Shown here piece by piece: positions 3,023-5,522 of a stretch of DNA of 23,339 nt. How positions within the stretch are numbered: the stretch's first letter is position 1; every line of letters starts with the position of its first letter. The stretch comes from Candidatus Parcubacteria bacterium (lineage in GTDB: Bacteria; Patescibacteriota; Patescibacteriia; UBA1558; GWA2-36-10), in contig DAOVVF010000001.1 in NCBI GenBank assembly GCA_030632225.1, positions 1 to 23,339 of the forward strand, given 5' to 3'. The translations under genes and the position numbers were made by a program. The notes beneath the pieces are model-generated. The model saw nothing but the letters and a program-made list of their open reading frames with translations, made no database searches and was not told the DNA's origin.

Positions 3023-3481
3023 TTAGTGTGTTGAGATTTTGAATTGAAGTACTTTATCGGGCAAAAAGCGCCAGTGCCTTTTGCCATTTTTGATGGCACC
3101 AGGTATTTTTTTCTGTTGTGCCAAACGTCTGGTTTTTCTTCTGGAGATATCAAGCACGATAGCTGTTTCTCTGGTGTTCAGAAAATCGTCTACTGTTACG
3201 ATTCCACCATTTTCACTGATGAGGAATTCACAGAAAAGTTTTCCAGTTTCTCTGTGAATGGTAGATTCTCCAGCGCCAAGTGTTCTAACTAGATCTACAA
3301 AGCGTTCATCCTGAGGAATGACTCCGTCCGCTTTTATGAGTTGAATATGTATATCTAGTATCCTCTCTTTCTCCTTTCCTGAGAGGGTTTTGGCTTTTTC
3401 CTTCATGAATTCAATCAGCTCTACTCGGTCGTGATAGTCTAATGGTTTTAACCATTCTAATCTTCTCAATACTTCACACAT
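3023..3481 (-). CDS. Excisionase-like helix-turn-helix protein, 152 residues
   Basis: The C-terminal third (about residues 97-150) has the pattern of an excisionase/MerR-type winged helix (HTH_17 style): an ETAIVLDISRRKTRRLA recognition region, then KKIPGAIKNGKRHWRFLPDKVLQF with the usual G-x-x-x-W-R-F wing. The N-terminal about 90 residues are helical and charged and are not recognised. The start is supported by GGAGGT five bases before the ATG. It has its own promoter (3520-3548) and terminator. The gene lies immediately downstream of the IS110-like transcription unit on the same strand and shares its less AT-rich composition. An accessory or regulatory role for that locus, such as directionality factor or repressor, is plausible but is inference from position and domain type. 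Confidence 0.75.
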   Translation of the reverse strand: MCEVLRRLEWLKPLDYHDRVELIEFMKEKAKTLSGKEKERILDIHIQLIKADGVIPQDERFVDLVRTLGAGESTIHRETGKLFCEFLISENGGIVTVDDFLNTRETAIVLDISRRKTRRLAQQKKIPGAIKNGKRHWRFLPDKVLQFKISTH

Positions 3482-3548: not shown

Positions 3549-3566
3549 GCTGTTTGTAATAGAAAA

Positions 3567-3590
3567 GGCGACTTAGAAGGCTAAGTCGCC
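3567..3590 (-). terminator. Intrinsic terminator closing the IS110-like transcription unit
   Basis: A perfect 10-bp stem (GGCGACTTAG / CTAAGTCGCC) with a 4-base loop is followed on the minus strand by TTTTCTATT. It lacks the ACA/TCGT motifs of its neighbours. It lies between the last array element and the promoter of the excisionase-like gene, so it marks the 3' end of the array transcript. Confidence 0.8.
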
Positions 3591-3595
3591 TAAGA

Positions 3596-3643
3596 CAAGA
3601 CAATGGAATCGTCGTCTTAAAAGACATTTTCTGTGTCGTCTTG
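3596..3643 (-). repeat. Two-guide-loop element L2
   Basis: Plus-strand parse: CAAG, ACA (3600-3602), ATGGAATCG, TCGT (3612-3615), CTT-AA-AAG, ACA (3624-3626), TTTTCTGTG, TCGT (3636-3639), CTTG. Both variable segments are exactly nine bases, and both stems are perfect. Confidence 0.7.
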
Positions 3644-3651
3644 CCTAAGAA

Positions 3652-3697
3652 GGGAACAGGCTCTTGTTCGTTATTAAAAACAATGATATATTCGCCC
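3652..3697 (-). repeat. Two-guide-loop element L3 (degenerate outer stem)
   Basis: Plus-strand parse: GGGA, ACA (3656-3658), GGCTCTTGT, TCGT (3668-3671), TATTAAAA, ACA (3680-3682), ATGATATAT, TCGC (3692-3695), CC. The last motif is TCGC instead of TCGT, and the outer stem is weak. Its 3' arm is shared with the long hairpin 3692-3744. Spacing of the motifs is still exact. Confidence 0.55.
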
Positions 3698-3744
3698 TCT
3701 CTCTACAAACCATTTTAATTAAATTGTCTATAGGGAGAGGGCGA
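3692..3744 (-). other. Long spacer hairpin between elements L3 and L5
   Basis: A 10-bp stem (TCGCCCTCTC 3692-3701 / GAGAGGGCGA 3735-3744) encloses about 33 bases with an AT-rich inner palindrome. It has no ACA/TCGT pair. Its right arm overlaps the outer stem of L5 (3739-3745) and its left arm overlaps the end of L3, so it competes with both. Confidence 0.6.
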
Positions 3745-3793
3745 AACATGGTCATGGTCGTTTATATAAACACCTCGACTAAACGTTTCGCCC
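3739..3793 (-). repeat. Two-guide-loop element L5
   Basis: Plus-strand parse: GGGCGAA, ACA (3746-3748), TGGTCATGG, TCGT (3758-3761), TTATATAA, ACA (3770-3772), CCTCGACTAA (ten bases, the only departure from nine), ACGT (3783-3786), TTCGCCC. The outer stem is seven perfect pairs. Confidence 0.7.
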
Positions 3794-3797
3794 CAAA

Positions 3798-3841
3798 GAG
3801 AACATTACGATATTCGTTTTAACAACTCCTTCATCGTTCTC
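3798..3841 (-). repeat. Two-guide-loop element L6
   Basis: Plus-strand parse: GAGA, ACA (3802-3804), TTACGATAT, TCGT (3814-3817), TTTA tetraloop, ACA (3822-3824), ACTCCTTCA, TCGT (3834-3837), TCTC. Four bases (CAAA) separate it from L5, so L5 and L6 form a pair. Its right arm overlaps the hairpin 3839-3878. Confidence 0.68.
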
Positions 3842-3878
3842 TCTTTAAGAATCCTAGATATAAGATGCTTAAAGAGAG
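3839..3878 (-). other. Spacer hairpin after element L6
   Basis: A perfect 11-bp stem (3839-3849 / 3868-3878, CTCTCTTTAAG and its complement) with an 18-base loop. It has no ACA/TCGT motif pair. Confidence 0.7.
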
Positions 3879-3879
3879 A

Positions 3880-3911
3880 GCCGACTACGATATTTATATA
3901 CCGTAGTCGGC
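3880..3911 (-). other. Spacer hairpin before element L9
   Basis: A perfect 10-bp stem (GCCGACTACG 3880-3889 / CGTAGTCGGC 3902-3911) with a 12-base AT-rich loop. It is not followed by a T run on either strand, so it is more likely a structural spacer than a terminator. Confidence 0.7.
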
Positions 3912-3915
3912 TGAA

Positions 3916-3965
3916 CAAAGACAGGGTGGTTCTCATTTTTAAGAACAACTGAGTGGCCGTCTTTG
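3916..3965 (-). repeat. Two-guide-loop element L9
   Basis: Plus-strand parse: CAAAG, ACA (3921-3923), GGGTGGTTC, TCAT (3933-3936), TTTTAAGA, ACA (3945-3947), ACTGAGTGG, CCGT (3957-3960), CTTTG. Both variable segments are nine bases. The two TCGT positions carry single substitutions. It lies 2 bases from the stop codon of the IS110-like gene. Confidence 0.62.
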
Positions 3966-3967
3966 GT

Positions 3968-5086
3968 TTATGCTGCAGAAATTTCATCTTTGTCTATTTT
4001 CAGATTTATGTTTTCGGCTTTTATCCATTGGGGATAGAGCCATTCGACAAAGCGGGTTAAAGTACGCCAGATAGCAGTACGATGGATATGTCCATCGGTC
4101 CATTTTTTCTTGCCGTTTTCACCGGTTATTGGTTCAGGATGAATTTCCCGTAGACGTGCTTTTATTTCGCGGTACTTTATACCCCAAACAGAATCTGGAC
4201 GTTTGACAAACTGATCAGCCATCAGAAAAAGAGCTTGTCTGGCTGTAGGATGCCAGTTGGCTATCTGTTTACTTCTTTTGCGCGGGAATTGTCCATCAGG
4301 CAGAATATGTACTCCGCAAAAAGCTTTAAGCTTATGCTTATTGGGGAAGCGTCTGATATCTCCTACAGCTGTAATTAAGCCAGACGTTAGAACTTCTCCA
4401 ATGCCTTCAATATCAGAGAAGACATGTCGCCAGACAGCTAGATTATGAACAGCTCTTCGCAGATCACCAGTGGCTCTTCTTTCCTGTTCAACTAGTGTTC
4501 GAAGAGCTAAATGATTGGCTTTAGCTCTTTGATATTCAGCTTCGATATTACCTTCTGGGTACTTGCCATCTTCTGATAGAAAGACCTGTCCGATAAGGCG
4601 TTGACTAATACGCTGTTCGCAGGCAATACGAGCTTTTTGAGAATCTTTACGACCATCCAGACATACTCTGACACGGATGACGTCACGTTCTCGAGGACCA
4701 GTCGGTTGAAAAAGTTCAGGTTTTTCCTGAAACAATAAAGCCAGAGTCTTGTCATCATCGTTTTTGTCTTTCTCGCCACGATGTTCTTGCAGAAGGCTGG
4801 GCGGAATTCTCATTACCTGAGCTCCTATATCAGCTCCATGGCGACTTAAGGCATAAGCCAGACGATCGCCGGAGCCTCCCAGGACCATAGCTACGGTATC
4901 TCCTGCCTGGAGCCCTTCTATTTTTTTTGCTCTGTAATGCCGTCCGAGAACAAAGTTCAATTCAGCATCGTCATCTTTAAGATTGAAGTGACGACTTTTA
5001 CCATTTTCGATAATGGTTACTTGAGTTGGTCGTGCTTCACCCTTAGCAGTGAACTTAACACGATGTCTGATTGCTATAATACGCAT
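3968..5086 (-). CDS. IS110-family-like transposase/recombinase, 372 residues, with degenerate catalytic motifs
   Basis: Domain order fits IS110/IS1111 recombinases: an N-terminal RuvC-like domain (about 1-130), a helical middle (about 145-220), a Transposase_20 domain beginning DIEGIGEVLTSGLITAVGDI (225-244) and continuing to about 292, and the usual C-terminal helices ending WLYPQW. Known members use an acidic D-E-D-D site and a serine, and are guided by a bridge RNA from their non-coding end. Here the first Asp is not visible (IIAIRHRVK, where G-I-D is expected). The E-A-T-G position reads GGSG (70-73). The D-rich third motif survives (KNDDDKTLALL, 108-118). The Q-S-G serine region reads GQFPRKRSKQ, with S272 displaced. 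I infer that it may bind RNA and DNA but recombine poorly, or use a diverged site. AAAGGAAA precedes the ATG. Both untranslated flanks carry guide-like loops. Confidence 0.85.
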   Translation of the reverse strand: MRIIAIRHRVKFTAKGEARPTQVTIIENGKSRHFNLKDDDAELNFVLGRHYRAKKIEGLQAGDTVAMVLGGSGDRLAYALSRHGADIGAQVMRIPPSLLQEHRGEKDKNDDDKTLALLFQEKPELFQPTGPRERDVIRVRVCLDGRKDSQKARIACEQRISQRLIGQVFLSEDGKYPEGNIEAEYQRAKANHLALRTLVEQERRATGDLRRAVHNLAVWRHVFSDIEGIGEVLTSGLITAVGDIRRFPNKHKLKAFCGVHILPDGQFPRKRSKQIANWHPTARQALFLMADQFVKRPDSVWGIKYREIKARLREIHPEPITGENGKKKWTDGHIHRTAIWRTLTRFVEWLYPQWIKAENINLKIDKDEISAA

Positions 5087-5147
5087 GTTATTTCCTTTCG
5101 CGTAAATATAGAAATTCTACAGTTAATTTAAAGGTACAGCTTATAAA

Positions 5148-5202
5148 GGATGAAACACTCAATTCTACGTTATAAAATAACACACTCACTCTCGTCTCAT
5201 CC
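5148..5202 (-). repeat. Two-guide-loop element A
   Basis: Plus-strand parse: GGATGA(A), ACA (5155-5157), CTCAATTCT, ACGT (5167-5170), TATAAAATA, ACA (5180-5182), CACTCACTC, TCGT (5192-5195), CTCATCC. The outer stem GGATGA/TCATCC and inner stem TAT/ATA are perfect, apart from one A-C mismatch beside the outer motif. Confidence 0.7.
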
Positions 5203-5209
5203 AAAAAAA

Positions 5210-5250
5210 GAACATTGTAAATATCGTCATAGACAATACTTTATACGTTC
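5210..5250 (-). repeat. Two-guide-loop element B
   Basis: Plus-strand parse: GA, ACA (5212-5214), TTGTAAATA, TCGT (5224-5227), C-ATA-G, ACA (5233-5235), ATACTTTAT, ACGT (5245-5248), TC. Stems are the shortest of the set (GAAC/GTTC outside, GTC/GAC inside), but the spacing is exact. Confidence 0.6.
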
Positions 5251-5289
5251 CCTCCCTAAAAATCACCATTGATGAGCTTTAGGGAAGGG
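5250..5289 (-). other. Spacer hairpin between elements B and C
   Basis: CCCT-CCCTAAA (5250-5260) pairs with TTTAGGG-A-AGGG (5278-5289): 11 pairs with one bulge and a 17-base loop. The last three bases of its right arm also belong to the outer stem of element C (5287-5294), so the two structures compete. Confidence 0.65.
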
Positions 5290-5343
5290 GTGAGACAATT
5301 AATATATCGTTCTTAAAGAACAATATGTATGTCGTCTCACCCC
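5287..5343 (-). repeat. Two-guide-loop element C
   Basis: Plus-strand parse: GGGGTGAG, ACA (5295-5297), ATTAATATA, TCGT (5307-5310), TCTTAAAGA, ACA (5320-5322), ATATGTATG, TCGT (5332-5335), CTCACCCC. The outer stem is eight perfect pairs and the inner stem three to four. This is one of the clearest copies. Confidence 0.75.
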
Positions 5344-5348
5344 CAAAA

Positions 5349-5395
5349 GGAAACAACACAGTTATCGTATACAATACACATATTGGGTCGTTTCC
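5349..5395 (-). repeat. Two-guide-loop element D
   Basis: Plus-strand parse: GGAA, ACA (5353-5355), ACACAGTTA, TCGT (5365-5368), ATACAAT, ACA (5376-5378), CATATTGGG, TCGT (5388-5391), TTCC. Five bases (CAAAA) separate it from element C. Confidence 0.68.
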
Positions 5396-5412
5396 CCTTC
5401 AATAAATGAAGG
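5396..5412 (-). other. Small spacer hairpin between elements D and E
   Basis: CCTTCA / TGAAGG with an ATAAA loop. The last two bases overlap the outer stem of element E. Confidence 0.5.
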
Positions 5413-5463
5413 TGAGACAGGCAGACTCTCGTTTATAATAAACAGCACTTCAGTCGTCTCACC
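5411..5463 (-). repeat. Two-guide-loop element E
   Basis: Plus-strand parse: GGTGAG, ACA (5417-5419), GGCAGACTC, TCGT (5429-5432), TTAT-A-ATAA, ACA (5442-5444), GCACTTCAG, TCGT (5454-5457), CTCACC. Both stems are perfect. It is the first element after the predicted transcription start near 5487. Confidence 0.75.
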
Positions 5464-5493: not shown

Positions 5494-5522
5494 AATATAG
5501 TATATAAAAACCAAACTGTCAA
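5494..5522 (-). promoter_or_regulatory. Promoter of the array / IS110-like transcription unit
   Basis: On the minus strand, TTGACA (5517-5522), 17 bases, then TATATT (5494-5499): near-consensus sigma-70. The predicted start is near 5487, just before element E. The -35 lies in the loop of the elp3 terminator. The octamer AAGAACAG (plus strand, 5479-5486) at the start point is shared with the promoter at 3520-3548. Confidence 0.75.

Follow-up and report, generated by a model that had tools for sequence, protein, structure and literature searches.

A 23,339-nucleotide stretch of DNA from a Candidatus Parcubacteria bacterium (contig DAOVVF010000001.1 of assembly GCA_030632225.1, positions 1 to 23,339; hereafter, the window) carries ten short hairpin units on the two sides of a gene for a protein of 372 residues. 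The locus is probably a TIGR-Tas system of the stem-loop form, in which ten hairpins with two spacers each surround a TasR-like, likely nuclease-dead protein, and in which guides from the minus strand would direct DNA binding without cleavage. In the excerpts of Faure et al. (2025, PMC12045711) to which all statements on that work refer here, TIGR-Tas systems use dual-spacer tigRNAs for an 18-base-pair target, with one spacer per strand; TIGR stem-loop arrays with variable palindromes are described, and a clade of TasR with an inactive RuvC domain and stem arrays, found in bacteria of the candidate phyla radiation (CPR), is briefly mentioned. With all the sequence features tested here present, the locus appears to be a new case of this clade. 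The units, the pairing of their stems and boxes, the relationship of the protein and the absence of the first active-site aspartate can be read from the sequence itself.

Hairpin units and their likely RNA strand

The ten elements described in the first-pass annotation, five on each side of the gene, were all recovered (3600-3639 through 5417-5457) when a scanner for motif and stem was run over both strands of the window. Read on the minus strand, every unit has an outer stem that encloses two copies of the series box C, nine variable bases (N9, the spacer) and box D, separated by a linker able to form a short inner stem, so that the earlier description of each element as an internal loop carrying a pair of guide-like strands stands. 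The same counts of variable segments were obtained as before, i.e. 9 nucleotides in 19 of the 20 and 10 nucleotides in one (unit 8, 3746-3786), and the boxes are indeed constant barring single changes: box D is TGT in 20/20, and box C is ACGA in 14/20, the other six being ACGT (three times), ACGG, GCGA and ATGA. The outer stems are paired in the predicted folds of all ten units, with a bulge in unit 9. A strict pattern gave nine matches on the minus strand of the window and none on the plus strand, and two of 30 shuffles, in which bases were permuted inside 200-base blocks, gave one match each; no Rfam family reached its gathering score. The units, as given by the scanner (and, for unit 1, by folding), and the gene are, in minus-strand order:

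5417..5457, minus strand: unit 1, two series of box C, spacer and box D joined by a linker, with CTGAAGTGC as the first spacer and GAGTCTGCC as the second; outer stem GGGGTGAG/CTCACCTT
5353..5391, minus strand: unit 2, spacers CCCAATATG and TAACTGTGT
5295..5335, minus strand: unit 3, spacers CATACATAT and TATATTAAT
5212..5248, minus strand: unit 4, spacers ATAAAGTAT and TATTTACAA
5155..5195, minus strand: unit 5, spacers GAGTGAGTG and AGAATTGAG
3968..5086, minus strand: TasR-like gene, 372 residues, Nop domain, N-terminal RuvC fold lacking the first catalytic Asp
3921..3960, minus strand: unit 6, spacers CCACTCAGT and GAACCACCC
3802..3837, minus strand: unit 7, spacers TGAAGGAGT and ATATCGTAA
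3746..3786, minus strand: unit 8, spacers TTAGTCGAGG (10 nucleotides) and CCATGACCA
3656..3695, minus strand: unit 9, spacers ATATATCAT and ACAAGAGCC; first box C GCGA
3600..3639, minus strand: unit 10, spacers CACAGAAAA and CGATTCCAT

Between units 8 and 9 (3695-3746), the flanks of the two units are mutually complementary (on the plus strand, GCCCTCTCTC with GGGAGAGGGC) and can form an alternative fold across both.

The elements had been read on the plus strand, where ACA-N9-TCGT is the complement of the more plausible RNA, ACGA-N9-TGT. Folding energy is lower for the minus than for the plus strand in 10/10 units of the window, and at least one G-U pair occurs on the minus strand in seven of the nine units whose stems were listed; the RNA strand is therefore likely the minus strand, i.e. 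that of the gene, with box C ACGA, N9 and box D UGU occurring twice per unit. Three further features, which are consensus matches only, bear on transcription:

5494..5522, minus strand: TTGACA-N17-TATATT, a promoter-like site that precedes the first sub-array and matches the consensus at 11/12 positions
3879..3912, minus strand: terminator-like hairpin of 15 base pairs inside the second sub-array, between units 6 and 7
3566..3591, minus strand: terminator-like hairpin of 11 base pairs followed by a T-rich tail, the likely end of the array

Promoter-like sites number 11 in the region against 6.8 expected. A transcript is likely to run from 5522-5494 to 3591-3566 on the minus strand, exceeding the span first noted, and the hairpin at 3912-3879 may partly shield the downstream sub-array against read-through.

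Sequence searching with the protein found 717 relatives (E <= 0.001), and a genome scan gave 62 loci, 50 of which carry names of groups that we take to be CPR groups, the other 12 coming from bacteria without one. Scanning of 65 sequences (box-and-stem score cut-off 26; spacers of 9 nucleotides preferred, 7-12 permitted) yielded 496 units in the sense of the gene, 10 antisense and three in shuffles; after removal of L002 and L003, which duplicate parts of L013 and L006, 471 units remained in 53 of 63 loci. Spacer A is 9 nucleotides long in 456/471 units and spacer B in 461/471; 461/471 units are at most 2 kb away from the gene, and units occur on both of its sides in 42/63 loci. Within 2.5 kb of the gene there are at least three units in 49 loci, one or two in four and none in ten. 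Seven of the eight unit-less loci inspected (L031, L042, L043, L050, L053, L011, L024 and L026) have beside the related gene, by eye and with no control, hairpins that share this layout but differ in their boxes, L024 and L026 only two such hairpins each.

Stem pairing and covariation, which had been proposed for study in further loci, are found in these arrays. A first stem test picked units partly by stem score, with G-U pairs rewarded, and was thus biased towards its own result; it was repeated with exact boxes, 9-nucleotide spacers and no stem criterion, giving the same picture from 372 box-only units in 53 loci (2 antisense). In these, Watson-Crick pairing at the five inner positions of the outer stem is 0.80-0.87, against 0.33-0.60 when an arm is combined with that of another unit of the same locus, in keeping with the claim that pairing is kept while sequence changes. 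At the same positions G-U combinations (0.05-0.09) are commoner than A-C (0.02-0.03), and therefore the RNA is likely that of the gene strand. The boxes covary as well: the first base of box C and the third of box D are, in the outer pair, A-U in 395, G-C in 57, G-U in 11 and A-C in 8 of 471 units and, in the inner pair, A-U in 388, G-C in 51, G-U in 20 and A-C in 12. The unpaired base combination was only weakly associated, and the 372 box-only units behaved alike. In all loci with units, both spacers favour purines at position 3 (0.66-0.67) and A or T at position 1 (0.63-0.66); the two spacers of one unit have neither identity nor complementarity above control.

The TasR-like protein

TIGR-TasR (PDB 9mty) was the top match of the 372-residue protein by phmmer, hmmsearch, Foldseek and VIA-align, a predicted structure being used for the fold comparisons, in which TasH entries were also matched (Foldseek, VIA-align) and IS621 and ISCro4 came next behind TasR. 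The name IS110-like given earlier to the gene thus holds for the common IS110 fold, but not for its closest sequence and fold match, which is TIGR-TasR and no IS110 recombinase. The position of TasR D11, the first RuvC aspartate, is non-acidic in 42/42 aligned family sequences and is Arg in the window protein, an equivalence drawn from the start of the fold alignment (2-to-6, VIA-align) and the family alignment; an IS110 protein from a plasmid, aligned by profile, covers query residue 78 onward only. Asp 111 is kept in 42/42 family sequences and aligns with TasR D90 in the phmmer and hmmsearch alignments; Lys 108 stands opposite TasR D87 in the phmmer alignment (0.8 bits), while D87 lies inside an insertion in the hmmsearch alignment, and this position is not relied on. 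The RuvC domain is likely nuclease-dead.

The first-pass annotation had proposed a multi-loop bridge-RNA IS110 recombinase, whose loops would pair with donor and target DNA for the protein to recombine them. The Pfam match, the place of IS621 and ISCro4 in the fold comparison and the two guide-like strands of each internal loop are what this proposal has in its favour. It has against it the nearer relationship to TasR in both sequence and fold and the non-acidic residue at the first RuvC Asp position in 42/42 sequences. The stretch ESGSS of IS621, which we take to be its catalytic serine stretch, aligns with PDGQF in the window protein (a weak match, E 0.097), with no serine there. Further points against a recombinase are the single copy of the gene in its own assembly (83% complete) and the numerous units that flank the gene on either side in 42/63 loci, unlike a single bridge RNA. 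Indeed, the units of the window seem to be separate hairpins, like those of the TIGR stem-loop arrays in the excerpted PMC12045711, and unlike one two-loop bridge; a bridge-RNA recombinase is, on this evidence, highly improbable, and the TasR-like reading is retained.

Spacer turnover and targets

How the spacers of the stem-loop arrays change was followed in within-locus pairs of units with outer stems identical at no less than 15 of 16 positions, both spacers of 9 nucleotides and a linker of at most 15 nucleotides, a choice that gave 107 pairs from 22 loci (24 of them from L032); the ten units of the window itself are too small and diverse a set to weigh on the question. Conservation of the N9 segments like that of their framework, which had been named earlier as evidence against guides, is not what these pairs display: spacer identity is near background (A 0.30 and B 0.28, with 0.27 and 0.26 for unrelated pairs), whereas identity reaches 0.67-0.82 in the ten bases next to the stem on its outer side (unrelated pairs about 0.28) and 0.67-0.78 in linkers of equal length (against 0.44). 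With one pair per locus, the spacers are 0.31 and 0.26, the 5' flank 0.55 and the 3' flank 0.71 identical. Identity falls sharply at the spacer edge, all nine spacer bases being near background; bases 1-3 of box C are 0.81-1.0 identical in related pairs, and its fourth base 0.67 (0.65 in unrelated pairs) in one box C and 0.65 (0.58) in the other. Between L060 and L062, four position-matched unit pairs share 13-16/16 stem, 2-4/9 spacer and 6-14/15 flank positions. By these comparisons the turnover of the spacers greatly outpaces that of the surrounding sequence, which likely reflects fast, focused renewal of the guides. In L049 (5425-5830 and 8157-8570), and also in L017, a series of stems is repeated in identical order on either side of the gene, as though entire sub-arrays had first been duplicated and later supplied with new spacers.

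The same pattern might arise by neutral drift of the spacers, while selection preserves the stems, boxes and flanks or gene conversion copies them. In seven unit pairs 12-17 of the 18 spacer bases are common, with one to six substitutions, so that intermediates exist, and in the four closest of these, one to three bases apart, 6/7 changes are transitions, as drift would give. Drift would also account for the higher spacer identity of units with both flanks alike and for the linker length changes that roughly half of the stem-identical pairs show. Among 30 pairs from 14 loci, chosen for stems at least 14/16 and one 30-nucleotide flank at least 0.9 identical, spacer identity is 0.36-0.37, and in the 12 of these in which the other flank is also at least 0.7 identical it rises above background to 0.42 and 0.44: the most similar units retain some spacer likeness. 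What speaks against drift is that spacers remain at 0.36-0.37 in those 30 pairs in spite of the conserved flank, and that non-coding flanks without obvious constraint are far more alike than spacers. Drift is on balance somewhat doubtful. In one pair spacer A is identical at 9/9 positions and spacer B at 0/9, and replacement of spacers may thus occur as well. It is tentatively proposed that stem-loop TIGR arrays of the CPR have a built-in diversification confined to the spacers, by targeted mutation or by cassette replacement within a preserved hairpin, that would renew both 9-nucleotide guides of a nuclease-dead, DNA-bending roadblock without a nearby adaptation protein. No account of spacer-confined divergence was found in the excerpts of PMC12045711 and of one review or in literature searches of open-licence papers, a range that leaves bioRxiv outside, and the locus itself was not encountered in print either.

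Several results weigh against the reading as a DNA-binding TIGR-Tas system. The sole Pfam match of the protein is the IS110 family Transposase_20, and the fold match to TasR has moderate TM-scores, 0.55 when scaled by query length and 0.66 when scaled by target. The boxes, (A)CGA for box C and UG(U) for box D, differ from the CCA/UG of the solved TasR in the excerpted PMC12045711, a comparison made with that protein and not with the published boxes of the CPR clade. No standard-box unit lies within 2.5 kb of the gene in 10/63 loci. Targets, modelled as spacer A and the reverse complement of spacer B with a gap of 0-2 base pairs, did not stand out: in those of the units' own loci that span 6 kb or more (422 units, themselves masked), scores equalled those of wrong-order, mixed-spacer and other-locus controls, and in 0.71 Mb of flanking DNA, the 447 units with two 9-nucleotide spacers matched at 17 or more of 18 positions in one place (one and two in controls) and at 16 or more in 54 (57 and 43 in controls). 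In the bacterium's own genome, three of the ten pairs searched whole and ungapped with up to three mismatches had no match, so that the genomic half-sites foreseen earlier for the guide pairs did not materialize for these three, and in a 94.5-kb sample of that genome all ten pairs gave no clear difference from controls. Finally, 917 spacers searched for complementarity to the 16S and 23S ribosomal RNA (rRNA) loci of one relative, with flanks, gave 42 full 9-mers, against 48 after shuffling and 39 in a sense control. The relative was used as the bacterium's own assembly gave no rRNA match; the 35 spacers from the genome of that rRNA had no full 9-mer match.

An exact IMG/VR search with three of the ten pairs and a gap of 0-2 base pairs gave 0, 0 and 1 match (no control). 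The genes of the matching contig presumably resemble those of a tailed phage; none of the other nine units matched strongly as well, and the match was taken as chance and dropped as a target. Each guide holds 18 bases of information, and a target in a large database is indistinguishable from chance.

The system is present in three of 35 genomes (its own included, the others being its nearest relatives), a patchy distribution, and the locus looks chromosomal. A pattern-based search of IMG/VR confirmed no homologue, and phage and plasmid collections gave distant matches only. No gene family within 4 kb recurs in more than five of 63 loci; genes presumably for elongation factor G and threonyl-tRNA synthetase, by sequence, are among the commonest neighbours. 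In the window the locus lies between a glyA-like gene, on one side, and an elp3-like gene, on the other, and directly downstream a 152-residue protein with an HTH_17 domain is encoded (3023-3481, minus strand). The HTH protein and the other window neighbours are not counted as parts of the system because no relatives of the neighbouring open reading frames were found near the genes of the other loci.

A chromosomal setting between such neighbours, with no close homologue in IMG/VR and distant ones only in phages and plasmids, would suit the regulation of chromosomal genes by spacers that address the host's own DNA. Such a role is unlikely given that 0/3 tested pairs (of ten, up to three mismatches) have an ungapped site in the 83% complete assembly, that sites are not in excess in flanking DNA, and that spacers turn over rapidly. 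In another proposal, the spacers would be modification guides akin to small nucleolar RNAs, with the dead RuvC domain recruiting a modifying enzyme and the spacers pairing with rRNA or other host RNA; the guide architecture resembles box C/D. The excerpts of Faure et al. raise the CPR clade with inactive RuvC as a possible step towards box C/D small nucleolar ribonucleoproteins (snoRNPs), whose Nop protein also has an inactive RuvC (PMC12045711). RNA modification is nevertheless quite improbable here, as matches to the 16S and 23S rRNA of one relative, the only RNA searched, are at the shuffled level, spacers are not conserved between related units and no neighbour gene recurs widely.

Proposed function and known systems

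By analogy with the excerpted PMC12045711, the units of the TIGR-Tas locus would be transcribed as one unit from the minus strand, each hairpin would be matured into one tigRNA, in the way that a gut-metagenome stem-loop array has been shown to be cut into single-unit RNAs, and the tigRNA would be bound by a Tas dimer. In the 18-base-pair target the two DNA strands would pair with the two 9-nucleotide spacers, A being followed by the reverse complement of B at a distance of 0-2 base pairs, an order set because of the 8-nucleotide 3' overhangs reported there, as interpreted here. With a dead RuvC domain, the likely activity is DNA binding; the 180-degree bend of DNA in the TasR structure suggests a roadblock, and the protein would thus bind and not cut, as a programmable roadblock against mobile DNA. 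Since the spacers outpace their surroundings, shifting targets such as mobile DNA would fit better than fixed host genes or rRNA.

The origin and targets of TIGR spacers are stated as open questions in the excerpts of PMC12045711. In this context, related arrays may serve as a fossil record, in which the hairpin stem and flanks are kept and both spacers redrawn, and spacer-confined divergence makes spacer origin measurable, as substitution versus replacement, by the comparison of strains. The 471 units with their box variants, from a single clade that is likely nuclease-dead, are a resource for choosing an RNA-guided system that binds without cutting.

Among known systems, CRISPR was dropped, the locus having no uniform repeats, two 9-nucleotide spacers per hairpin and a Nop protein. 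IS110 elements with a bridge RNA (IS621, 8wt6/8wt9; ISCro4, 9t56) have in common with the locus the RuvC and Nop-like RNA-binding fold and the internal loops with two guides, but here there is no acid at the first catalytic position, no aligned serine motif, and ten units instead of one two-loop RNA. Box C/D snoRNPs are alike in their Nop-like fold and C/D-box guide logic, whereas the spacers here have no rRNA pairing above chance. TasR of Thermoproteota (9mty), the best relative in sequence and fold, has the same domain order, but its RuvC is active (D11) and its array is of the dual-repeat type, in which the edge and loop repeats are short; Arg and hairpin units are found here instead. The adjacent array, the two mostly 9-nucleotide spacers per unit, the C/D pairing and the variable palindromic stems of TIGR-Tas systems are all present, and the closest likeness, so far as the excerpts of PMC12045711 describe it, is to their CPR clade, with its Nop-domain protein, its inactive N-terminal RuvC fold and its bacterial hosts.

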